A stretch of DNA of 64,000 bases from Acetobacterium woodii (GTDB lineage Bacteria; Bacillota; Clostridia; Eubacteriales; Eubacteriaceae): assembly GCA_016213825.1 (NCBI GenBank), contig JACQZP010000020.1, positions 1 to 64,000 of the forward strand, in the 5' to 3' direction. This document shows, piece after piece, positions 37,031 to 50,638 of this stretch (position 1 is the first letter of the stretch; every line of letters starts with the position of its first letter). Position numbers and translations under genes: made by a program. The notes under the pieces are model-generated. The model had not been told where the DNA came from, ran no database searches, and was given only the letters and a program-made list of their open reading frames with translations.

Positions 37031-37534
37031 TCGGCCCAAAAGTCTGGCCGGAAAAATAGTTTGATTATGATTGTTACTCAATAAGCTCACCGATTACAGG
37101 TTAATTTTAAAACGAATTTGAAAGTTGCTACAATTTAATATAATCAGAAAAAGGCGTTTTTCAATTGGATCGATTTTAAGAGATCCGGTTAGAGATGCGC
37201 CTTTTTGTTTTTTGATAATCAAATTGAAGTTGGACAAAGAATCTTAGTAAGCGATGCGCTAGCTTCATTATGGATGATGATTCGGACTTTTATTACTGAA
37301 ATATTCGAAAAATGAACGACTAAATCATTTTTTCTGTTTAAAATGAATAAATATGTGTATAAAAAACAGGGAATGGATCCTTACTGGGTCTAAGAGTAGC
37401 TACGTAATATTTGATAAAGCGATCTAGTACTTAAAATTAGCAGATGTTTAATTTAAATGGAACTGGGAAACTGTAGGTTGAAGAATATTAAAATAGTTTA
37501 AAAGAAAAATCCGATGTCAAGTGAGGTGACGAAA
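37031..37534 (+). other. Intergenic region with a terminator-like hairpin
   Basis: At about 37150-37208 AAAGGCG pairs with a later CGCCTTT, with an inner GGATC/GATCC pairing, followed by TTTTT; this should end the FIST-receptor transcript. The remaining 300 bases hold no gene and probably include the cheA promoter, but no clear -35/-10 pair is seen. Confidence 0.5.
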
Positions 37535-39664
37535 GTGACAAAAAATTTCGAAAACGAACCGATGATGGAGGTATACATCTTTGAAACGACCCAAAATCTT
37601 GAGCAACTGGAGCAGGTTATAATTTGCAGCGAAAAAAACGGTGGATTTACGCCTGATGACGTCAGCGAGATCTTTCGGTTTATGCATACCATAAAGGGCT
37701 CATCAGCAATGATGTTGTTTAATAACATCGAAACGGTCGCTCACTCTATGGAGGATATTTTTTACTTCATCCGGGAGCAAAAACCACAGGGACTGGATTT
37801 TTCGGCGGTATCCGATCTGGTCTTGGAATGTGTGGATTTCATTAAGGAAGAAATCAATAAAATTACAAACAACAGTGATGTTGACGGGGACCCGGCTGTT
37901 CTCATAGATTCGCTAAAATTATTCCTCGATGAATTACGTCGTCTCTTTGGTGAAGAAGACTCGCAAAACAAAAACAACTCTAAAAAACAGCAGTACTATA
38001 TTCCTCAGGAAAAGAAACAGGGGTTACCAAAAGAAAAAGACAAACCGAAAAATGAATCAGAAACCAGCTCAGAAGGCGCCTGCTATCAGGTTATTATTCG
38101 CTATGAAGACGATTGCACGATGGAGAATATCCGAGCTTACACGCTGGTTTTTGGACTGGCAGAGTTGGTCGAAGAGGTCTATTATTTACCGGCGGACATC
38201 GCTGAAAATTCGGAAACAGCGGCTTATATCCGCGAAAATGGATTTGAAATCTATTTAAAAACAGAAATGGGTTATGAAGAGATCAAGGCTCATTTTGAAA
38301 ACATTATTTACATTGAACAGCTACTTTTTAGAGAAATTGAAGAGGAACGGATGGATCCGTTCCGAAAGGCACAAAATCAAGTGCAATCTAAAGAGAGCTT
38401 TGTTCTACCGAATGATGAATTATTCAAGCCAGACATCCCCCTGGCACCTGTCGCTTTTTCAGAGGAACCTCAGAAAAATAATACTGCCGCTCAGAAGATG
38501 ATCAGCGTCAATGTGGACAAACTTGATAATCTTATGAATCTGGTTGGTGAACTGATGATTACCGAATCGATGGTTACCCAATGTCCAGAGGTGGAGGTCA
38601 TTCAGTCGGAAAACTTTCACAAGGCTTCGATTGAGCTTCATAAGATCACGGTGGAACTGCAGGACATGGTGATGGCAATTCGGATGGTTCCGCTATCCAC
38701 TACCTTTGTGAAAATGAATCGGATTGTTCGGGATATGTGTAAAAAGCTGAACCGGGAAGTGGTCTTGGATCTCTACGGCGAAGAAACTGAAGTGGATAAG
38801 AACATTATTGAGCATATCTCCGATCCCCTGATGCATATCATCCGAAATGCCATTGATCATGGCATTGAAGGTGAAGAAGAACGGTTGTCTAAAGGCAAGG
38901 AGAAAGTCGGGCATATTATTTTAGAGGCGAAAAACGTCGGTAGTGATGTGCTCATTGTTATCAAAGATGATGGCCGAGGACTGAATAAGGCCCGGATTCT
39001 CGAAAAAGCCCGAAAAAATGATCTTTTAACAAAACCCGAGGAAGAAATGAGTGACCGGGAAATTTTCAAACTGATCCTTCTGCCTGGGTTTTCAACCAAA
39101 GAAAGCATCACTGAATTTTCTGGCCGGGGGGTTGGTATGGATGTGGTGACAAAAAACCTGGAGGAGGTCGGCGGCACCGTGTTGGTTGATAGTGAAATGG
39201 ATCAGGGCACGACCATTATCTTAAAAATTCCATTAACACTGGCCATTGTGGAAGGTATGAATATCCGGGTGGGGAAATCCCGTTATACCATCCCGATCAC
39301 CACCATTTCCGAATCGTTTCGGCCCGATGAAAAAGACTGCATGATGGATCCTGACAATAATGAAATGGTCATGATTCGGGGACAATGCTTCCCGATTTTG
39401 AGACTACATAAACACTATCATATAAAAAATGCAGAAACAGATCTGACCAAGGGAATTTTGATAATGGTGGAGCAGGAAGAAAAGGTAATCTGCGTATTTG
39501 CCGATGAGCTTTTAGGGCAACAGCAGGTGGTTGTTAAATCACTTCCTAATTATGTCAATTCAATGAAAAAAATTCTTGGACTAGCTGGCTGTACCCTCCT
39601 CCCGGACGGCAGCATCAGTTTGATCATGGACATCAGCGGCTTGACGGGCTTGCGGGTGCAATAA
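37535..39664 (+). CDS. cheA: Chemotaxis histidine kinase CheA
   Basis: A 709-residue CheA. The P1 HPt domain carries phosphorylated His51 in FRFMHTIKGSSAMM. A low-complexity linker and a P2-like domain (YQVIIRYEDDCTMENIRAYTLVFGLAELVEEV) follow. Then comes the dimerisation domain (ISVNVDKLDNLMNLVGELMI), the ATPase (HIIRNAIDHGIE, KDDGRGLN, GRGVGMDVV) and a C-terminal CheW-like domain. The GTG at 37535 fits GAGGTG (37523-37528); an ATG at 37514 would add 7 residues but lacks a ribosome site. Palindromic repeat G separates it from cheW. Confidence 0.95.
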   Translation: MTKNFENEPMMEVYIFETTQNLEQLEQVIICSEKNGGFTPDDVSEIFRFMHTIKGSSAMMLFNNIETVAHSMEDIFYFIREQKPQGLDFSAVSDLVLECVDFIKEEINKITNNSDVDGDPAVLIDSLKLFLDELRRLFGEEDSQNKNNSKKQQYYIPQEKKQGLPKEKDKPKNESETSSEGACYQVIIRYEDDCTMENIRAYTLVFGLAELVEEVYYLPADIAENSETAAYIRENGFEIYLKTEMGYEEIKAHFENIIYIEQLLFREIEEERMDPFRKAQNQVQSKESFVLPNDELFKPDIPLAPVAFSEEPQKNNTAAQKMISVNVDKLDNLMNLVGELMITESMVTQCPEVEVIQSENFHKASIELHKITVELQDMVMAIRMVPLSTTFVKMNRIVRDMCKKLNREVVLDLYGEETEVDKNIIEHISDPLMHIIRNAIDHGIEGEEERLSKGKEKVGHIILEAKNVGSDVLIVIKDDGRGLNKARILEKARKNDLLTKPEEEMSDREIFKLILLPGFSTKESITEFSGRGVGMDVVTKNLEEVGGTVLVDSEMDQGTTIILKIPLTLAIVEGMNIRVGKSRYTIPITTISESFRPDEKDCMMDPDNNEMVMIRGQCFPILRLHKHYHIKNAETDLTKGILIMVEQEEKVICVFADELLGQQQVVVKSLPNYVNSMKKILGLAGCTLLPDGSISLIMDISGLTGLRVQ

Positions 39665-39843: not shown

Positions 39844-40344
39844 ATGGTAAAAGACCTGACTGAAGAGATTGATCAGGATGATGACCAAAAAGGGATGTAT
39901 CTCACCTTTGAACTGGCCAATGAGTATTACGGGTTATGGATCGGATATGTCACCGAAATTATTGGCATTTTGCCATTTACTGAAGTTCCAGAGTTACCAG
40001 TATATGTGCGAGGAATTTTCAACCTCAGAGGCCGGATTATTCCGTTAATGGATATGCGCCTCAGGTTTCAAAAAGAATTTGTGGATTACGATGAACGATC
40101 CTGCGTGATCGTCATCGATGTGTTGGAAAATACCGTCGGTTTGATTGTGGACAGTGTTTCCGAGGTGATCTCCTTTGAAGAGGAGGATATCATTGAACAG
40201 CCCATGCTTAGCTCGGGAGTCTCCAATCAATTTATCAAAAGCATCGGTAAGGCAGGAAATGAAGTCAAATTACTGCTTGACTGTGACAAGTTACTATCCA
40301 ATCAGGAAATCGAAATTCTAAATAATGAGAAAGATGAGAGGTAA
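39844..40344 (+). CDS. cheW: Chemotaxis coupling protein CheW
   Basis: A 166-residue CheW linking receptors to CheA. It shows YLTFELANEYYGLWIGYVTEIIG, VPELPVYVRGIFNLRGRIIPLMDMRLRF and GLIVDSVSEVISFEEEDI. The N-terminus has a short acidic extension (EEIDQDDDQKG). TAGGAGTTG lies before the ATG. It is followed after 5 bases by a membrane receptor gene. Confidence 0.93.
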   Translation: MVKDLTEEIDQDDDQKGMYLTFELANEYYGLWIGYVTEIIGILPFTEVPELPVYVRGIFNLRGRIIPLMDMRLRFQKEFVDYDERSCVIVIDVLENTVGLIVDSVSEVISFEEEDIIEQPMLSSGVSNQFIKSIGKAGNEVKLLLDCDKLLSNQEIEILNNEKDER

Positions 40345-40349
40345 TAGAG

Positions 40350-42074
40350 ATGAAATGGTTTTATAATTTAAAAATTGGAACAAAGTTGATTCTCGGTTTT
40401 ATTGTGGTGGCATTGATTGCTGGTGGGATCGGTGTGATGGGGGTGATCAATATCCAGACGGTGAATCGTCAGGATACCTATCTCTATCAAAAAATGACGG
40501 TTCCTCTGGGTGAGCTTATTTATATTGTCGATGCATATAAGGGAATTACGAATAATGTGGATGCCATCATTTTATCTGGAAATAGTGACGAAATATCGCG
40601 GCTGGAAGCCAGTATTCAGGAAAAAAATACAGAATTCGATACCAATATGCAGAGCTTTCAGACAACGTTGATCTCCGAAGAAGGGAAAAAATTGGTAGAA
40701 AGCGCCATTATTCAAAAAGAAAAGATGAATAAGGCCGAAGCAGAGATCGTCGCCCTTGTTAGGCAAGGGAAACAGGCAGATGCTATTGCGCTGATGAAAA
40801 ATGGTGACTATAATAGTGCTGCAACCCAGATGGAAAGCGATATTGCCCGGATGATCGAAATCAAACTACAGGTAGCTGGGGAAACCGCTGCTGGAAATTC
40901 CGCCATAGCCAGTTCATCTACCTTCATGACGATTGTTTTAATTATCATCGGCATGATTTTATCGATCCTTTTGGGTATCTTTATTGCGTCAACCATTAAA
41001 AAACCGGTTCACAAAATGGTGGATGCCTCCAAACGTATGGCAGACGGGGATCTGGATGTAACCATTGACATCAATACTAAAGACGAGATGGGGGATTTAG
41101 CCGGTGCATTTAATCGCATGGCGGCAAATATTAACGAGGTTATGGTCAATATCAATGAAGCCACTGAACAGGTAGCCTCTGGATCCAGACAGGTTTCAGA
41201 TTCCAGCATTTCCCTTTCACAGGGCGCCACCGAGCAGGCCAGTTCAATTGAAGAACTCACAGCATCCATCGAAGAAATTGCCTCTCAGACACGACTCAAT
41301 GCTGAAAATGCAGAACAGGCAAATCAATTAGCGGAGAATACCAAAGACAATGCCAACCAAGGAAATGCCCGAATGCAACAAATGTTAGGTTCTATGGAAG
41401 ACATCAGCGAATCCTCCAATAATATCTCTAAAATTATTAAAGTGATTGATGAGATCGCCTTCCAAACAAATATTCTGGCACTAAATGCTGCGGTGGAAGC
41501 TGCCAAAGCAGGCCAAAATGGAAAAGGTTTTGCCGTGGTTGCCGTCGAAGTTCGAAATCTTGCCGCACGATCAGCTAGTGCCGCCAAGGAAACGACCGCG
41601 CTCATTGAAGGTTCAATCAAAAAAGTTGAAGGTGGAACAAAAATCGCAAATGAAACGGCTACCGCCCTTGTCCAAATTGTCGAATCCATTGAAAAAGTAT
41701 ATGCTTTAATCAATAATATTTCGGTTGCATCAAATGAACAGGCGATTGGCGTTGACCAGATTAATCAAGGTGTTACCCAAATTGCTAATGTTGTCCAGTC
41801 AACATCGGCTACATCACAAGAAACTGCCGCCGCCAGTGAAGAATTGGCGAGCCAGGCTGAAATGCTTAAAGAACAGGTATCCCGTTTTAAATTAAAACGA
41901 GGTGGATTCATGGGAGCAGAAAGTTATGAAAACCTTAGTCCAGAAATGATGAGAATGTTTGAAAATATGAAAGAACAAAATCGTCAAGCAGTGAAAAAGA
42001 GATCCACTGAGGGGAGTTATACACCAGCAAGTAAAAAAATCATCCTCAGTGATGATGAATTTGGAAAATATTAA
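40350..42074 (+). CDS. Membrane methyl-accepting chemotaxis protein
   Basis: A 574-residue receptor with TM1 at about 12-34 (LILGFIVVALIAGGIGVMGVI), an external four-helix-bundle ligand domain of about 150 residues, TM2 at about 190-213 (TIVLIIIGMILSILLGIFIAS), HAMP (KKPVHKMVDASKRMADGDLDVTI) and a signalling domain with the tip IDEIAFQTNILALNAAVEAAKAGQNGKGFAVVAVEVRNLA. The C-terminal tail is extended and ends DDEFGKY; no CheR-docking pentapeptide is obvious. The ligand is unknown. It is co-transcribed with cheW. Confidence 0.93.
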   Translation: MKWFYNLKIGTKLILGFIVVALIAGGIGVMGVINIQTVNRQDTYLYQKMTVPLGELIYIVDAYKGITNNVDAIILSGNSDEISRLEASIQEKNTEFDTNMQSFQTTLISEEGKKLVESAIIQKEKMNKAEAEIVALVRQGKQADAIALMKNGDYNSAATQMESDIARMIEIKLQVAGETAAGNSAIASSSTFMTIVLIIIGMILSILLGIFIASTIKKPVHKMVDASKRMADGDLDVTIDINTKDEMGDLAGAFNRMAANINEVMVNINEATEQVASGSRQVSDSSISLSQGATEQASSIEELTASIEEIASQTRLNAENAEQANQLAENTKDNANQGNARMQQMLGSMEDISESSNNISKIIKVIDEIAFQTNILALNAAVEAAKAGQNGKGFAVVAVEVRNLAARSASAAKETTALIEGSIKKVEGGTKIANETATALVQIVESIEKVYALINNISVASNEQAIGVDQINQGVTQIANVVQSTSATSQETAAASEELASQAEMLKEQVSRFKLKRGGFMGAESYENLSPEMMRMFENMKEQNRQAVKKRSTEGSYTPASKKIILSDDEFGKY

Positions 42075-42171
42075 GAAGTTAATCATTTTAGAAAATTTAA
42101 TTAAGTAGTTCAGTTGATTATAAAAGAAGACCTGGTCATAGTTTGGAAATAAGATTTTCATGGAGAAACAG

Positions 42172-45100
42172 ATGGACGAAATGAGAGAACAAATCATAAA
42201 CAAAGATAAAGCATGGTTGGTATCAACACTCAACAGTGCTGGCGACGCAATCATGACCTGTGAAATGGATGATCGGTTGGATTTTGCAAATGCTGAAGCA
42301 CTGAAAATTCTTGGCCTGTCGTTGTCTGAAATTCTGGGAAAGTCATTTCAAGACGTATTTAAAATATTTCGAGATGGGCACGATGCTCCTGTGCAATTCT
42401 GGAAAGATGATAAAGATGATCACATGTTGGCAAGTGTTGGATTACCCAGAGCTTCGTTTTATTTAAAACCGAACGGTGAAAAATGTTACTTGTCAGCCCA
42501 TTTGTCACCGCTGTTGTCAGACAATTTGGAATATATGGGAAAGGTTGTTGTTTTTCGGGATATTTCTAGAATTATTGAAGCTGAAAATACAATCAAGAAC
42601 GAGCGTAATAACTTAAAAATGATGTTTGATCTATTACCGACAAATATGTTGGTTATTGATGATACGTTTTTAATTCAACGTGTTAACCGTGCTTTTTTAA
42701 AAACTTTTAATCTTGAAGAACCAATGGTGATTGGAAAAGCTTTTGGTGATGCAATGGGATGTGTTTTCAGCGTGGATGATGGGTGTGGCTATTCGTTAAA
42801 TTGCAAATTTTGCAGTATCAGAAAAATTGTCAACAAAGTTATCAAAGATAAAAAAACGGTCAGAGACCGATCGATTAAAGTGAAATTCTTAAATGAAAGC
42901 AAACAACAAACACACTTTTTAAATGTCAGTGTCTTACCAGTAATAACATTTAGCAATTCAGAGTATATCATTACAATGGAAGATGTTACCGAACAGATTT
43001 ATTATGAAAAAAGTTTGAAAGAAGCCCGTGAGTCCAGTCTTTCGATATTAGATAGCTTGCCAGTTATGATTTATCGGATCGACCATGATCATCATTGTGA
43101 TTTTATCAACCAAACATTCAAAACATTTATGAAAATCACCAGAGAATCTTTTTTAGAAGCGTTGCGATTTCATATGAAACCGGAGGATCATCAGCGATTT
43201 ATTGATACATTGGAACTATCGCTTAGAGAGGAAACCTATTTCGACATTGAACTGGATCTTCTATCACCTGAAAATATCTTTCGAACTTTCCGAGGAATAG
43301 GAAGACCTTATTTTGATAAAAATCACGAATACGCTGGGATGATTGGTTTGTTTTTAGACATTAATGATGAGCGATTTGCTGAAGAACTATTTATTAAAAG
43401 TCAAAAAAAATACTTCTCTCTTTTTAAATACATGGAGAGTAGCATTTCTTATTACAAAGCGCTATTTGATGATGACAAAAATCTGATTGATGCCGTACTT
43501 GTGGAAATGAATCTGGCCACAGAAAAACTGTTTGAATCTAAACGCGATGATATAATCGGACATAAATTATCTGAAATGGGTTTTCTCGAGAAAGTCGAAA
43601 GACAGGGACTTTTAAATCGCTTTAAAGAAGTACTCGTTCAAGGTAAAAATGTACATATTGAAGAATACTATCTGAGAAAATTAAACCGCTGGGTGGAAGG
43701 TTCAATTTATAGTCCTGAAAGTGGATATATTGCGATATTGGCGTCGGATATCGACCTGAAGAAAAAGACGGAACTGAAGCTGATACTAGCGATAGAACGC
43801 TCCGAAGAAGCCAATCGGGCTAAAAGTGAATTTTTAGCAAATATGAGCCATGAAATACGAACACCGCTTAACGGAATTGTTGGCATGATTGATTTAACAG
43901 CCCTGGAACCGCTTTCTGAGGAACAGAAAGACAACTTAAGAACCGCAAAAGGCTGTGTCCAATCACTCATTAATATTATTAATGATATATTAGATTTCGC
44001 AAAAATTGAAGCCGGAAAACTAATGATTAATCCCATGAGTTTTAACCTGATGGAACTCATTGAATCCACGATTAAAACCCATAAGAAGCATGCCATTGAA
44101 AAGTGTCTGGATATTTCGGTAGATTATCAGAATTTAGTATCATTTTATGTTATCGGTGACAGTATGCGACTGAAACAGATTTTAAATAATCTGATTAGCA
44201 ATGCCATAAAATTCACAAATGAAGGATCAATTAAAGTCTTTGTTAATCAGAAATTAATCGAAAATAAAACCGATGAAGTAATCCAGGAAATTTCCGTAAC
44301 CGATACTGGAATTGGCATTGATCCTGAAAATTATTCCATGCTGTTTAAGAGTTTTACGCAGATTGATGGCTCCTATACAAGAGAATATGGTGGTACTGGT
44401 TTGGGACTGGTGATCACTAAACAACTTATTGAAATGATGGGTGGAACAGTATCCTTCACTAGTCAGCTAGGAACAGGCAGTACGTTTATCATTCGTCTGC
44501 CGATGGTGATAACAAAAAAACCAAGTGAAACAGCAGTTAATACAAATCCTGATGCTAGTTTTTCAGGGAGTCGAGTTTTGTTGGTTGAAGATGATCGGGT
44601 CAATCAAATTGTTATCTGTAAGATGCTTGAAAGTTTTGGTGCTGATGTCGATGTGGCTGCAAATGGCGTGGAAGGAGTCAAAAGAGCTTCTAAAAAGAAG
44701 TACAATATTATCCTCATGGATGTGCAAATGCCTGTGATGGATGGGATTAAAGCGACTCAGATTATTCGTGGAGTAGAGAAAAAAACGGAGCGGCATTTTA
44801 AATTTGATGAATTGGAAAATTCATTAAATTTAACCACGCCCATCATTGCCCTAACAGCGTTTGCTCTTAAAGGTGATGAAGCTATTTTTAAGGCCAGTGG
44901 GATGGATGGTTATTTATCAAAGCCGTTGGACCGACATCAAATGCAAATACTTTTAAAAAAATATCTCAATAACCTAGATAAATCAAAAACAGAAATGCTT
45001 CAAGATATGATCAGAGACTTACAAAAAACAGAAAATGGTAGAACTGAATCTGATCCATCAACGCGTTTAACCGCGGATGATTCAGAAAAACAGGAAGTTG

Positions 45101-45327
45101 ACCTAAAAATAAAAAACTTGAAAACAATTATGGACCAAGGAAATTACATGCTGATGGAAGTAATCGCTCATCAATTAAAAGGGATCTTCGAGAGAATGAA
45201 TGCGGAAGAATTAAAAAACCTGGTTTTTAAAATGGAATTGGAAATTCGAAAAGATCGTATTGAAAATGTTTCGGATTATCTTGAGCGCATTGAGCAAATA
45301 TGGCTGATGATGAATAGCTGCAAATAG
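42172..45327 (+). CDS. Multi-PAS hybrid histidine kinase with receiver and HPt domains
   Basis: A 1051-residue soluble kinase. Order: PAS 1 (about 12-125), a Cys-bearing PAS 2 (140-280) with Cys197, 205, 211 and 214, PAS 3 (285-405), a further PAS-like region (410-540), HisKA with His560 in MSHEIRTPLNG, HATPase (NLISNAIKF, DTGIGID, GGTGLGL), a receiver with Asp850 in ILMDVQMPVMDG, and a C-terminal HPt-like helix bundle with His1000 in AHQLKG. All phosphorelay stations are therefore in one chain. The four-Cys pattern in PAS 2 could hold a metal or Fe-S cluster. GGAGA favours ATG 42172 over 42160. Confidence 0.88.
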   Translation: MDEMREQIINKDKAWLVSTLNSAGDAIMTCEMDDRLDFANAEALKILGLSLSEILGKSFQDVFKIFRDGHDAPVQFWKDDKDDHMLASVGLPRASFYLKPNGEKCYLSAHLSPLLSDNLEYMGKVVVFRDISRIIEAENTIKNERNNLKMMFDLLPTNMLVIDDTFLIQRVNRAFLKTFNLEEPMVIGKAFGDAMGCVFSVDDGCGYSLNCKFCSIRKIVNKVIKDKKTVRDRSIKVKFLNESKQQTHFLNVSVLPVITFSNSEYIITMEDVTEQIYYEKSLKEARESSLSILDSLPVMIYRIDHDHHCDFINQTFKTFMKITRESFLEALRFHMKPEDHQRFIDTLELSLREETYFDIELDLLSPENIFRTFRGIGRPYFDKNHEYAGMIGLFLDINDERFAEELFIKSQKKYFSLFKYMESSISYYKALFDDDKNLIDAVLVEMNLATEKLFESKRDDIIGHKLSEMGFLEKVERQGLLNRFKEVLVQGKNVHIEEYYLRKLNRWVEGSIYSPESGYIAILASDIDLKKKTELKLILAIERSEEANRAKSEFLANMSHEIRTPLNGIVGMIDLTALEPLSEEQKDNLRTAKGCVQSLINIINDILDFAKIEAGKLMINPMSFNLMELIESTIKTHKKHAIEKCLDISVDYQNLVSFYVIGDSMRLKQILNNLISNAIKFTNEGSIKVFVNQKLIENKTDEVIQEISVTDTGIGIDPENYSMLFKSFTQIDGSYTREYGGTGLGLVITKQLIEMMGGTVSFTSQLGTGSTFIIRLPMVITKKPSETAVNTNPDASFSGSRVLLVEDDRVNQIVICKMLESFGADVDVAANGVEGVKRASKKKYNIILMDVQMPVMDGIKATQIIRGVEKKTERHFKFDELENSLNLTTPIIALTAFALKGDEAIFKASGMDGYLSKPLDRHQMQILLKKYLNNLDKSKTEMLQDMIRDLQKTENGRTESDPSTRLTADDSEKQEVDLKIKNLKTIMDQGNYMLMEVIAHQLKGIFERMNAEELKNLVFKMELEIRKDRIENVSDYLERIEQIWLMMNSCK

Positions 45328-45340
45328 TGGGAGAAGAACG

Positions 45341-45739
45341 ATGAAACGTATTTTAATAGTAGAAGATGACATGGTGAGCCGAAAGTTTCTATCGAAGTTT
45401 CTGAACAGATATGGTGATTGCGATTTGGTTGTAGATGGTCTGGAAGCGATCGATGCCTATCTTTTAGCAATAAAAGAAGGATTACCTTATGATCTGATCT
45501 GTCTGGATGTAATGATGCCTAAGATCGATGGCATTAAAGTGTTAAAAACAATCAGGGATTTGGAAAAACAAAATGATCTAGACGAAAATGAACGGTGTAA
45601 AATTATTATGACCACTGTATTAGGGGAAACTAAGATTGTCCAATCAGCTTTTGACTATGGTTGTAATGCTTATGCTTCAAAACCGATTGACATCGAAAAA
45701 TTAACTGAAGTATTAGGAAAAATCGGTTTTTTAGACTAA
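45341..45739 (+). CDS. Stand-alone response regulator (CheY-like)
   Basis: A 132-residue single receiver. The acidic pocket EDD (8-10), phosphorylated Asp56 in ICLDVMMPKIDG, the Thr in MTTVLG and Lys in ASKPID are all present. No output domain. It starts 13 bases after the hybrid kinase and is the likely receiver of its HPt, or acts as the CheY of this cluster. Confidence 0.9.
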   Translation: MKRILIVEDDMVSRKFLSKFLNRYGDCDLVVDGLEAIDAYLLAIKEGLPYDLICLDVMMPKIDGIKVLKTIRDLEKQNDLDENERCKIIMTTVLGETKIVQSAFDYGCNAYASKPIDIEKLTEVLGKIGFLD

Positions 45740-45872: not shown

Positions 45873-46274
45873 TTAAAGAGTTTTGGCATAAATACCTATT
45901 TTTTTGTCCATTGATGAAATATGTTGGGTTAGCCAATTGATGATCATCTGGTTAGCATTAATAATCAGCGATATATTTCCACCTGATTCCTGATAATCTT
46001 TTTTTAGTTTTGCTAATTCTGAGATAAAATTGCTATGTAATTTCTTTTGTTCATCAATTCCGGGGTATTTAATTTTGGCCATATATGCCTCTTCGTCTTT
46101 AAAATGCTGTTTTGTATAATCATCGAGAAAATCAAACATTTGCGCAATATATTCCTTAGATTTTCCGCTTTTTCCAGCTTCAAAAAGCTGATCGGCTTTT
46201 TCAAACCATATTTTGTGTTGAGAATCGATATTTTCTACGCCAACTGATAAGTCTGGGGTCCATGCTATTGCCAT
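45873..46274 (-). CDS. Bacteriohemerythrin
   Basis: A 133-residue single-domain hemerythrin with the di-iron ligands in order: His in DSQHKIWFEKAD, His and Glu in QHFKDEEAYM, His in KKLHSNF, and His and Asp in LTQHISSMDKKIG. It binds O2, or perhaps NO, and in anaerobes buffers or senses oxygen. It has no attached sensory domain. It is convergent to the receiver gene and divergent from cheR. Confidence 0.92.
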   Translation of the reverse strand: MAIAWTPDLSVGVENIDSQHKIWFEKADQLFEAGKSGKSKEYIAQMFDFLDDYTKQHFKDEEAYMAKIKYPGIDEQKKLHSNFISELAKLKKDYQESGGNISLIINANQMIINWLTQHISSMDKKIGIYAKTL

Positions 46275-46589
46275 TATATTTCTCCATTCTAAATTAGATT
46301 TATTCTATTATAGAACTTTTTAAGAGATATTACAAGGAAATGTTTAAGGACAGCTGTTCCTATTGGGCAGTTTTCAATTTTTACGTAAATAACAGCATCA
46401 TTCTTTTCATACCCGAAATAAATATAAAAAACAAGATTTAAAACTCAGTGAAAACATAAGGATTTCCAGTAAAATCTTTATTTACTTTAGACACACACTA
46501 AGGTAAACTAGCCTATGTATTCATTTATTTATAAGCCGGTATTTGCTTTAAATGAAATGATGATAAAGCGATTGAGGATGTGTAGAGAT
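46275..46589. other. Divergent gap between hemerythrin and cheR
   Basis: It contains no supported gene. It is AT-rich and presumably holds both divergent promoters. An in-frame ATG at 46515 could extend cheR by 25 residues but has no ribosome site and adds unconserved sequence. Confidence 0.35.
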
Positions 46590-47417
46590 ATGATTCAAAT
46601 AACCGAAAAAGAATTTGCGATGCTAACCGAATATATTCATTGTGAATATGGAATTCAGCTAAAAAAAGAAAAGGAACTCCTGCTAATGGGCCGTCTACAC
46701 AAGCTGCTTGTTGAGTTAGGTTTCGATACATTTACTGACTATTATGAATACTTAATCTCAGACAAAACAGGGGAAGCTAGTTCGGTGTTAATCGACAAGG
46801 TATCGACTAACCATACCTTTTTTATGCGAGAACCGGAACATTTTGATTACTTTAAAAATACAGTATTGCCTTATTTAAAGAAAAAAAAGGAGCAGGAAAA
46901 TAATCGTGATATTCGATTGTGGTGTGCTGCCAGTTCTACAGGTGAAGAACCCTACACCTTGGCGATGATTATGGCTGAGTTTTTTGGAACAGATGCAAAA
47001 TTATGGGATAAAAAACTTCTGGCTACTGATATTTCAAACAAGGTATTGGACATCGCCAAGAAGGGGGTTTATGGCAAAGACCGGATACAGGCATTACCTC
47101 CAATGTGGAAATTAAGGTATTTTCAAACTTATGATGACAGCCAGGTTATGGTTGTCGACGAGATCAAGAAGGAAGTCATTTATCGACGGTTTAATTTAAT
47201 GACCCCGACATTTGTTTTTAAGAAGAAATTCGATGTTGTTTTTTGCAGAAATGTAATGATTTATTTTGATCAACCGACAAAAGATCGATTGGTTGAAAAA
47301 ATGTATCATTGGACAGAACCGGGGGGATATCTATTTATCGGACATGCTGAATCCCTCAATTTGAAGAACACCAACTATAAATTTATTATGCCGGCTTTGT
47401 ATCAAAAACCATTTTAA
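46590..47417 (+). CDS. cheR: Chemotaxis receptor methyltransferase CheR
   Basis: A 275-residue methyltransferase that adds methyl groups to receptor glutamates. The N-terminal helical domain (IQITEKEFAMLTEYIHCEYGIQL) precedes the SAM-binding part (RLWCAASSTGEEPYTLAMI, ATDISNKVLDIA, VVFCRNVMIYFD, GYLFIGHAESL). The start is uncertain: ATG 46590 is chosen by comparison with the family. No CheB methylesterase or CheD is in the window, so methylation would be one-way unless these lie elsewhere. A coiled-coil/LRR protein follows. Confidence 0.93.
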   Translation: MIQITEKEFAMLTEYIHCEYGIQLKKEKELLLMGRLHKLLVELGFDTFTDYYEYLISDKTGEASSVLIDKVSTNHTFFMREPEHFDYFKNTVLPYLKKKKEQENNRDIRLWCAASSTGEEPYTLAMIMAEFFGTDAKLWDKKLLATDISNKVLDIAKKGVYGKDRIQALPPMWKLRYFQTYDDSQVMVVDEIKKEVIYRRFNLMTPTFVFKKKFDVVFCRNVMIYFDQPTKDRLVEKMYHWTEPGGYLFIGHAESLNLKNTNYKFIMPALYQKPF

Positions 47418-47596: not shown

Positions 47597-49471
47597 ATGG
47601 AAGAAAAAAAAAGAGTAAACGTTCGTGATAGTGTAAAAAAAATGTATCATATCAGAGATCGTCATCTGTCATTAACAGGGGAACTTGACTGGCCACTTTA
47701 TTTAGCAATCGTACGAGTAGTTCGTCCAAAACAGAAGACGTTTCAAGTCTTGACGGAAGAAATGCTCTTAAAAAGATATGCACCTACCGCAGTATTGGTT
47801 GATCAATTCGGAAATATGCTTTATATTCATGGACATACAGGTTTGTATTTGGAACCCGCCCAGGGGTATGCTGGTGTTAACAACGTTCTTAAAATGGCAA
47901 AAAATAAACTGCGTCGCGATTTAAGTGTCGCCCTGCGCAAAGCCGTTACAAATCAAGAAGTGGTTGATTCGCCAGAATTTCCGGTTAAAAAGAATGGCAA
48001 AATTTTATGGATTAAACTTTCAGTGATTCCACTCCTAAAAAAAGCTTCAATCGATCAGACGAAAGATTTCTATCTTATTATTTTCAATCAAAAAAAAGAA
48101 CAAGTCAAACACCAAACGATGATAGTTCCCGATAAAGATGTAATGAATGTACCACAAATGGACCCGGAAATGGGCAGCTTGCATCATACAATAATTTCAA
48201 AAGAAATGGAATTAACTCAAATAAATAGCGAACTGGAAAATGTGAAAGCAGATCTGGAAATCTCCAGAAACAAACTACATTCAGTTAAGGCGAATATCTA
48301 CCTTTCAGAAACAGAATTACAAACAATTACTGAAAAAATAACCCTATCAAAAGATGAACTAGTGGGTCTTAACAATGAATTAAGCAATGCTAAGAATGAG
48401 TTGGAAGCCGCATTGATAATCCCTGAAAAGATAACTGAGGATTTTGCGCCGATCAGGCAGGAATTAGAAGTTATTAAAAACGAATTATCCACGGCAAATC
48501 AAGAATTAAACACCAAAAAGGAAGAGTTGGAAAAACTAAATCAGCAATTCGAAATTCGAACCGATGAGAGTCCCTTGATAAATCAAGAGAATATTTCGCA
48601 AATAGAAATAAAAACGAACCCTCTTGATCAAGTCGGTGTGAGCGATTCTGAAAATAGTGATCAGAATTTTGATAATGATCCTTTTAGCATGAACTTGAAT
48701 ACAACAGTTATGAATGAAAAGGGGATGGGTTTTTTCTCGAAAAATGAACCTAAACCATTTTTTCCGCCTCGAAAGAGTTTCGCCTTTGGACACGAATCGG
48801 ATCCTGTGTCTTCACCAGAAATTATAAAAGAACTAAAATTTAAGGATGTTCTGGAATTTCAGGCAGCTGCCAGCCATGGATTCAGACATGACAATGACAT
48901 TACATCAGTAGTCATCCCGGAGGGTGTTGAGGTCATAAAAAGAAGTATGTTCTATAAATGTACTCAATTGAAAGAGGTTAGCTTTCCCAGTACTTTAAAG
49001 ATAATCGAAGACTTTGCATTCTATGGCTGCGAAAAATTAAACAAGGCTGAATTAACCAAATGCCGGTTTCTTGAAACCATCGGAACCTCGGCATTTGAAG
49101 GTTGCATTGCTTTAACAGAGATAATTATACCAGATTCAGTTATCGGGATTGAAGAAGCATCATTTCTAGGATGCAAGGGAATTGAAACTGTTAAATTTCA
49201 AGAGAATAGCCAATTAGAGATTTTAGGAAGTCATGTCTTTAAAGATTGCGTAAGACTAAAGGAAATAATCTTACCGGATCAGCTAAAACATATCGGTATC
49301 AGTTGCTTTTACGGTTGTCAAAACTTGTCAGCAATTCATTTATCCAGGGAACTGCAGACAGTCGGGGAATATGCATTTTGGGGTTGTGATTCTTTGCGCG
49401 AAATTGAAATTGCAAACAAAAAAATACTAAAACAACCAGGGTTCACTGTTGGTTTTCCAGACGGTATTTAG
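47597..49471 (+). CDS. CheB/CheR-fusion-linker-like domain, coiled coil and BspA-type LRR protein
   Basis: A 624-residue protein with an unusual build. Residues 1-175 (MLLKRYAPTAVLVDQFGNMLYIHGHTGLYLEPAQG, NNVLKMAKNKLRRDLSVALRKA) closely resemble, from memory, the PAS-like linker between the methylesterase, methyltransferase and later domains of CheB-CheR fusion proteins. Residues 195-330 are a long heptad-rich coiled coil with Asn/Glu-rich repeats. Residues 410-615 are six or seven BspA/LRR_5-type repeats (EGVEVIKRSMFYKCTQLKEV...). There is no signal peptide, so the LRR part is intracellular. It lies just downstream of cheR and may be a scaffold or receptor-associated factor; this is inference. 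Confidence 0.75.
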   Translation: MEEKKRVNVRDSVKKMYHIRDRHLSLTGELDWPLYLAIVRVVRPKQKTFQVLTEEMLLKRYAPTAVLVDQFGNMLYIHGHTGLYLEPAQGYAGVNNVLKMAKNKLRRDLSVALRKAVTNQEVVDSPEFPVKKNGKILWIKLSVIPLLKKASIDQTKDFYLIIFNQKKEQVKHQTMIVPDKDVMNVPQMDPEMGSLHHTIISKEMELTQINSELENVKADLEISRNKLHSVKANIYLSETELQTITEKITLSKDELVGLNNELSNAKNELEAALIIPEKITEDFAPIRQELEVIKNELSTANQELNTKKEELEKLNQQFEIRTDESPLINQENISQIEIKTNPLDQVGVSDSENSDQNFDNDPFSMNLNTTVMNEKGMGFFSKNEPKPFFPPRKSFAFGHESDPVSSPEIIKELKFKDVLEFQAAASHGFRHDNDITSVVIPEGVEVIKRSMFYKCTQLKEVSFPSTLKIIEDFAFYGCEKLNKAELTKCRFLETIGTSAFEGCIALTEIIIPDSVIGIEEASFLGCKGIETVKFQENSQLEILGSHVFKDCVRLKEIILPDQLKHIGISCFYGCQNLSAIHLSRELQTVGEYAFWGCDSLREIEIANKKILKQPGFTVGFPDGI

Positions 49472-49645: not shown

Positions 49646-50638
49646 GTGAAAAGGCATGAGGATGTTATAAATATTGATACAATAAATGAAGACAATCGAA
49701 AAAGACTCAGTGAACAGTCTTTTGAAGAGGGCGTGCTGGCTTTATCTGAAAAGCTGGAATTGGCGAACAGTCTGTTAACGACAATTCTTGAAACTACCCA
49801 TGAATTTATGGTGTTTGGTCTAGATAAAGAATACCGTTACCTGAGCTTTAATAATCGGCATAAAGCGATGGCAAAAGATCAATGGGGAGTAGATATCACC
49901 ATTGGAACAAGAATTCTGGATATCATCGATAGTAGAGACGAACGAGAAAATTTAAAAGCTTTTTTTGATCGTGTTTTGTCTGGGGAACAATTTTCATCAA
50001 TTGAAGAGTATGAAGGCACAAACGGAACCACGGTTATCGGAAAAAATCATTGGGCACCCATTAGAAATAGCAATAACGATATTATCGGAATGGTTTGTTT
50101 TATTCAGGACGTTTCGGAAAACAAAGATTTTCTGAAAGAAATGCTTGAAGAAAAAAATTCTCAAGATAAAAGCATGGAATCAATGTCTTTTTATGACCAA
50201 TTAACTGGGGTCTATAATCGGAAATTTTATGATAAGGAACTAAAGCGATTGGATGATATTCTCTATTATCCGTTGTCAATCATTTTAGTAAGCATTAATG
50301 GTATCGAGAAAGTCAACAACCAATACGGTCAAACGGTTGGTGATATATTAATTAGAAAAGCTGTTCAAGTACTTAATCATGGATGCAGAGGCGATGATGT
50401 TGTTGCACGCTATGATGGCAATGAATTTGTTATTCTTATGCCAAGAACAGATGGTGCTAAAGTTGAGCGGGCTTTGGAACGAATCAAAAAGAGTATGGAT
50501 GAAGTAAAAGTTAAATCTGTCAAAGTATCTGTTTCTTTTGGCTTTTCAACCAAGTATGAAGAAACAGAGAAAACAGAGGACGTTTTAAAAATGGCACAAC
50601 GGCATTTAGAGCGACAAATTAAATTAAATTATATTTAA
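49646..50638 (+). CDS. PAS-GGDEF protein with degenerate active site
   Basis: A 330-residue protein with a PAS domain (residues 40-160; TILETTHEFMVFGLDKEYRYLSFNNRHKAM) and a GGDEF domain (175-325; SFYDQLTGVYNRKFYDKEL). The signature reads YDGNEF where YGGDEF is expected, so the first Gly and the Asp that help bind GTP and metal are replaced. It may be an inactive, GTP- or effector-binding protein rather than a diguanylate cyclase. The start is GTG at 49646 behind GGAGGGTGAGG. It ends the chemosensory cluster. Confidence 0.85.
   Translation: MKRHEDVINIDTINEDNRKRLSEQSFEEGVLALSEKLELANSLLTTILETTHEFMVFGLDKEYRYLSFNNRHKAMAKDQWGVDITIGTRILDIIDSRDERENLKAFFDRVLSGEQFSSIEEYEGTNGTTVIGKNHWAPIRNSNNDIIGMVCFIQDVSENKDFLKEMLEEKNSQDKSMESMSFYDQLTGVYNRKFYDKELKRLDDILYYPLSIILVSINGIEKVNNQYGQTVGDILIRKAVQVLNHGCRGDDVVARYDGNEFVILMPRTDGAKVERALERIKKSMDEVKVKSVKVSVSFGFSTKYEETEKTEDVLKMAQRHLERQIKLNYI

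Follow-up and report, generated by a model that had tools for sequence, protein, structure and literature searches.

CheB-CheR fusion proteins combine CheB, CheR, a linker, a coiled coil and a PAS domain in one chain. A full fusion of this kind is present in the genus Acetobacterium itself (genome G001, L045, 1028 aa), and a table note in the accessible part of PMC8396549 refers to cheBR fusions of Geobacter. In the accessible passages of the literature found, no function is given for the stretch that connects CheR with the coil, and those of PMC2577667 say nothing on the linker. In the CheR-TPR proteins FrzF and WspC, a repeat-type interaction domain is linked to CheR and the genes lie in clusters with multidomain regulators. 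According to the passages available from the same source (PMC3447774), the TPR repeat limits the methylation activity of FrzF, and CheR-TPR proteins are almost absent from Gram-positives. BspA-type LRR proteins (PF13306; PDB entries 4fs7, 4gt6, 4fd0, 6mlx and 4cp6) include several with 'cell-surface protein' or 'vaccine antigen' in the title. For enteric CheR binding, positions 2 and 5 of the receptor pentapeptide (NWETF-type tether) are stressed in the accessible part of PMC7390727.

The protein described here is encoded in a stretch of 64,000 nucleotides from Acetobacterium woodii, referred to as the window. It shares with the fusions a homologous PAS-like linker that is followed by a similar coil. 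In contrast to the fusions, it matches no methylesterase, methyltransferase or PAS_10 model and carries an LRR arm instead, and the CheR next to it is encoded separately and comes from a different lineage. The TPR of the CheR-TPR proteins is fused to CheR, whereas the LRR is located on a separate protein and in a Bacillota lineage here. The LRR is of the same type as in the BspA-type proteins and its fold is similar, but there is no signal-peptide-like stretch and the repeats sit on a signalling module. The receptors of the cluster resemble the NWETF-type tethers in their end (x-[FY]-x-x-Y) and differ from them in reading EFGKY, EYGKY or DYGKY with a basic position 4; this tail is a candidate CheR site. 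No description of the linker-coil-LRR architecture was found in the literature, as covered by titles, openings of abstracts and passages and with subscription journals mostly outside this scope.

Most likely, with a rough probability of 45%, the protein is a soluble adaptor in which the PAS-like linker and coil of the fusions are joined to a cytosolic LRR arm, and which would position or tune CheR at the receptors. If this is true, an intracellular LRR protein is tied to chemosensory adaptation, in parallel to the CheR-TPR proteins.

Domains of the linker-coil-LRR protein

In Pfam the chain matches LRR_5 (PF13306, E 1.2e-51) and LRR_8, in agreement with the BspA-type repeats of the original prediction. 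Coiled-coil look-alikes are all below threshold. The CheB methylesterase domain (PF01339) and the CheR domains (PF03705, PF01739) are absent from the chain in the Pfam scan, and the N-terminus thus stands without either enzyme, as had been proposed. The same scan shows no PAS_10 (PF13596), which is present after the coil in all four CheB-CheR fusions scanned, and does not identify the chain as a CheR-TPR fusion. No single model in the libraries scanned (Pfam, NCBIfam) spans linker, coil and LRR, which is in line with the suggested novelty of the domain combination.

The 19-residue Kyte-Doolittle mean has its maximum of 1.46 inside the LRR and reaches 1.09 in the first 60 residues. By this simple hydrophobicity measure (not SignalP), no signal-peptide-like stretch is found, as the original prediction had stated, and the protein is probably cytosolic. 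Five other open frames with LRR_5 were read in the own genome. Three of these start signal-peptide-like by eye, one was read without its start, and one (L088, contig G000:C31) has no signal-peptide-like start. The latter, a protein of 166 aa, is possibly a second cytosolic BspA-type LRR.

The N-terminal region of about 180 residues is matched by no Pfam or NCBIfam model and by none of the PHROG phage families. A tblastn search with residues 1–168 against 72,556 plasmid records (E ≤ 0.01) gave matches in 100 records, the best with an E of 1e-11 and ~33% identity. Among the 40 matches listed, 22 overlie an annotated feature; 20 of the 22 are annotated as 'CheR family methyltransferase' or 'chemotaxis protein CheB'. 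An HMM derived from 11 N-termini of the family matches seven of seven CheB-CheR fusions offered (E 1e-12 to 5e-30), which bears out the presumed relation to the fusion linker. The match is located between CheR and the coil in all four Pfam-scanned fusions, in a segment that no Pfam model matches in these four. Nineteen alignment columns are conserved to at least 80% in 26 fusion linkers. The majority of the family has the same residue in 17 of the 19, and a paralogue from genome G018 (see below) in 16 of the 19, compared to 32 identical columns between fusions and family majority among the remaining 104. The common signature includes G79, T81, G82, L85, E86 and G90 (numbering of the window protein). 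As this linker stands alone with its signature kept, its partner and ligand can be studied apart from the enzymes.

The linker may have a PAS fold, as judged from the structure model. The order of secondary structure elements (H-E-E-H-H-E-E-E) fits PAS, with a mean pLDDT of only 42.6. The top fold matches in the PDB are mostly titled PAS or LOV, at query TM-scores of just 0.23–0.43. For this low-confidence model the best Z is 9.4 (PAS of TraJ) and most others are 7–8, a level that the tool rates as common. The profile comparison with PAS_10 is in register but weak (probability 0.67 on a scale of 0–100, E 0.084). PDB sequence searches with the linker gave a single match apiece, with E values of 1 and 1.7, and are uninformative. 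Both structure predictions used alignments of three sequences, and the PAS-like part is poorly modelled as a result.

The long coiled coil of the original prediction corresponds to helices 190–272 and 284–318 of the model. It scores 60 bits against the coil of the G018 paralogue and 29–32 bits against three fusion coils. In the control, the receptor coils of the window score ≤15 bits and two other coils 17–20 bits; all such scores are prone to composition effects. An independent origin of the coil is disfavoured by these comparisons, though with this reservation. Coil and linker probably represent one lifted module rather than independent additions. Of the three parts proposed earlier, linker, coil and LRR are thus all present, but the coil is probably not an addition of its own.

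In the LRR model (residues 411–610) the ten-residue mean pLDDT is 72–90, which is fair to good, and the fold matches include the five BspA-type PDB entries named above. The LRR is the best-conserved large part of the protein, with a mean pairwise identity among orthologues of 0.705, compared to 0.607 for the linker and 0.418 for the coil (the near-identical pair of the window and L034 excluded). The segment from coil to LRR is highly variable in length. It contains the motif MGFFSK(N/T)EPKPF (residues 377–389, window positions 48725–48763) in six of the 11 orthologues, in variable surroundings.

Attached and detached linkers

Orthologues of the LRR protein are present in 11 of 19 Acetobacterium genomes and in none of 21 other genomes of the family. 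The frame is open in all 11. Eight genomes of the genus, some of them incomplete, lack the protein; four of these (G001, G003, G005, G015) still carry a close CheR relative.

Linker matches were found in 16 of 398 genomes in a phylum search and in 13 of 67 in an order search, the own genus being counted in both. Without the own genome, the phylum sample has the linker in 15 of 397 genomes, one of these cut by its contig. Both searches together yielded 19 linker loci outside the genus, and in 18 of them CheR is located upstream in the same frame. L067 is truncated by the contig start, and L066 ends soon after the linker. A class search (6 of 391 genomes) added G193, G327 and G293, each with the linker behind CheR. 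Six of the 100 plasmid loci were read, and in all six the linker is preceded by a complete or partial CheR without a break of the frame; two of them do not carry this annotation. This makes 28 linkers read outside the genus, and all but the truncated L067 (27 of 28) are found behind CheR in one frame.

In addition to the orthologue, G018 encodes a second protein with a detached linker (978 aa, L044:6954–9890, minus strand). Its linker is followed by a very long coil with fusion-like repeats and a C-terminal ferritin/rubrerythrin-like end. This end matches PF02915 with 23.7 bits (cut-off 22.8) when scanned alone; the scan of the whole protein gives no match (E 0.01). The neighbours include capsule genes and a Leu/Phe-tRNA transferase. 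None of six scanned neighbours is a che gene, and the flanks (6.9 and 9.6 kb) show no match to the che genes of the window or to CheB and CheD queries.

In an unrooted linker tree of 38 rows, the 11 orthologues and the G018 paralogue are on one side of a branch (98/94) and 26 fusions on the other. This agrees with a single origin of the detached linkers. As to direction, we infer that the module originated in the fusions and was later released from them, and not the opposite, because the fusions are more widely spread.

The succession of cheR and linker parallels the domain order of the fusions, so cheR and the linker-coil part might be the two halves of a broken CheB-CheR fusion. The CheR tree makes this extremely improbable. 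It comprises 62 rows with a midpoint root; L004, L058 and L052 from S. medicae (short matches) as well as L123 and L067 (no match) were excluded. Ten CheRs of the cluster group with ten stand-alone CheRs (98/90), and a clade apart (100/98) unites the 23 CheRs taken from fusions. On the fusion side of the root there are 19 further stand-alone CheRs. A profile of the cluster CheRs scores 307–367 bits on eight stand-alone CheRs, 70–159 bits on other stand-alone CheRs and 67–97 bits on fusions. Among stand-alone CheRs from outside the genus, seven score highest; the analysis covered the surroundings of six of these, all but L104. Fission of a fusion into the present pair of genes is contradicted by the tree. 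As a member of a stand-alone lineage, the cluster CheR did not evolve in cis with the linker of the LRR protein. Neither this lineage nor the lack of cheB in the cluster figures in the original prediction.

A wider interpretation of these sequence comparisons is offered tentatively. Linker and coil of the fusions may be a self-standing, exchangeable signalling module. In Acetobacterium this module would have become the driving part of independent cytosolic adaptors whose ends were exchanged, with an LRR next to cheR and a ferritin-like end at another locus. Receptor methylation would thereby come under an additional control in trans, in a cluster that has no CheB of its own.

Gene cluster and receptor tails

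Table 1. Genes of the chemosensory cluster and domains of the LRR protein (window positions).
Feature	Position	Strand	Basis and remarks
cheA	37514..39664	+	Hpt, P2, dimerisation, ATPase and CheW domains (Pfam)
cheW	39844..40344	+	Named by us from sequence and position
Transmembrane chemoreceptor, 4HB_MCP_1-HAMP-MCP signal domain, end ...LSDDEFGKY	40350..42074	+	Pfam, tail reading
Hybrid histidine kinase with PAS domains	42160..45327	+	Pfam
Single-domain response regulator	45341..45739	+	Named by us from sequence
Hemerythrin-domain protein	45873..46274	-	Pfam; same place in 9/11 loci
cheR, stand-alone lineage	46515..47417	+	Pfam, CheR tree; probable start at 46590, with which the length (275 aa) equals that of most orthologues
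LRR protein gene, 624 aa: detached CheB-CheR linker, coiled coil, BspA-type LRR	47597..49471	+	ORF reading, Pfam, 10 further genomes with an orthologue
PAS-like linker domain, residues 45-168 (bounds approximate)	47729..48100	+	Homology to the CheR-to-coil segment of CheB-CheR fusions
Coiled coil, residues 189-330	48161..48586	+	Model helices, coil comparisons with control
BspA-type LRR domain (PF13306), residues 409-610	48821..49426	+	Pfam, structure model, identity among orthologues
PAS-GGDEF protein	49646..50638	+	Pfam; directly downstream of the LRR protein gene in 11/11 loci

The position after cheR that the original prediction had pointed out is conserved: cheR lies directly upstream in the window and in the 10 other genomes, although in L038 its frame is incomplete because the contig begins there. 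The order with the LRR protein gene is MCP-HK-RR-(Hr)-cheR-LRR gene-GGDEF (unreadable in L038). The genes cheA-cheW-MCP-HK-RR precede it in the window and eight other loci; L043 has HK and RR without an MCP before them. Three genomes that lack the LRR protein have the order MCP-cheR-HK-RR. The position of cheR thus differs with the presence of the LRR protein gene. The gaps flanking this gene in the window are 179 and 174 bp, and promoter- or terminator-like sites around it are no more frequent than in shuffled DNA.

Two minor observations concern other genes of the cluster. The hemerythrin gene, which lies between RR and cheR in reverse orientation and is absent at this place in L036 and located elsewhere in L038, makes an oxygen or redox input to the cluster possible. 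In G017 the hybrid histidine kinase is split into overlapping frames of 759 and 296 aa (L040:11904–15070, minus strand), either by a frameshift or by an assembly error.

The PAS-GGDEF gene is as constant downstream as cheR is upstream, and in the four Pfam-scanned fusions the coil leads into further PAS domains. Both would suit a protein that serves mainly the c-di-GMP/kinase branch and links the receptor array with the hybrid kinase or the PAS-GGDEF protein (49646), with CheR as a mere neighbour. Given that cheR is found in all 11 loci as well, and that apart from the truncated L067 every linker read outside the genus follows CheR in frame, this explanation is considered unlikely.

The window's contig has no CheB domain, and neither CheB nor CheD was found in the stretches around the 10 other orthologues. 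Six near clusters from other genera were read (L126–L131, some of them truncated), and in all six cheB directly follows cheR, the place that the LRR protein gene occupies here. The LRR protein could accordingly stand in for CheB and restrain CheR or shield receptors, balancing methylation without a cognate methylesterase. We regard this as distinctly unlikely. In G003, G005 and G015, which lack the LRR protein, cheR is followed by HK and RR and not by cheB, and in G001 by a cheD homologue. A simple replacement of cheB is weakened by the three genomes with neither gene after cheR. Furthermore, the own genome has three CheBs elsewhere. One of them belongs to a sister cluster (G000:C7, L157, 96000–115500; cheA-cheW-MCP-cheB-cheD-HK-RR) with EFGKY receptors and could serve here. 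No cheR was found in that cluster.

The tail EFGKY of the window receptor is encoded at 42057–42071. The same pentapeptide ends receptors in each of the two own clusters, in four genomes that lack the LRR protein and in four clusters from other genera (besides the window L126, L127, L130, L131, L157 and L161–L164, from several families of the class). EYGKY and DYGKY also occur among the orthologues' clusters. Aromatic residues occupy positions 2 and 5 of the terminal pentapeptide in nine of nine readable cluster receptors. Because the tail is identical in both own clusters, CheR of the window cluster and CheB/CheD of the sister cluster may share receptors. With a basic residue in fourth place, tails of the EFGKY kind may represent a pentapeptide type.

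Possible role beside CheR

For the preferred reading as an adaptor, the following arrangement is conceivable. The PAS-like domain would contact CheR, or the complex in which CheR works, in trans, as it lies beside CheR in cis in the fusions. The coil would give the protein an elongated and probably dimeric shape. The LRR would bind a second protein, most simply a receptor, the kinase or the cyclase of the same cluster. As a whole, the protein would position or tune CheR at receptors with a pentapeptide-like tail (EFGKY).

Several results argue for this reading. The linker is homologous to that of the fusions and keeps 17 of the 19 conserved columns, the detached linkers form one clade, and cheR and the PAS-GGDEF gene are constant neighbours in 11/11 loci. 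The graded identity of LRR, linker and coil points in the same direction. A published analogue is the TPR of FrzF, which restrains methylation according to the accessible part of PMC3447774.

Other results weaken it. The neighbouring CheR is of a stand-alone lineage, and no che gene was detected near the linker-coil-ferritin-like paralogue of G018. The protein is missing from eight of the 19 Acetobacterium genomes, four of which nevertheless have a close CheR relative. The model of the PAS-like part is of poor quality (mean pLDDT 42.6), and promoter- and terminator-like sites are at shuffled level in the gaps of 179 and 174 bp. The scaffold or docking role in receptor methylation suggested by the original prediction is possible and would fit the conserved adjacency to cheR, but the G018 paralogue with a detached linker is found among capsule genes.

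The absence from eight of 19 genomes (some incomplete) and the greatly variable length of the coil-LRR segment would also be expected if the protein were a product of chance domain shuffling that has no set function and is being lost. This is highly unlikely, since the frame is open in 11 of 11 genomes, the location is constant, and LRR and linker retain mean pairwise identities of 0.705 and 0.607.
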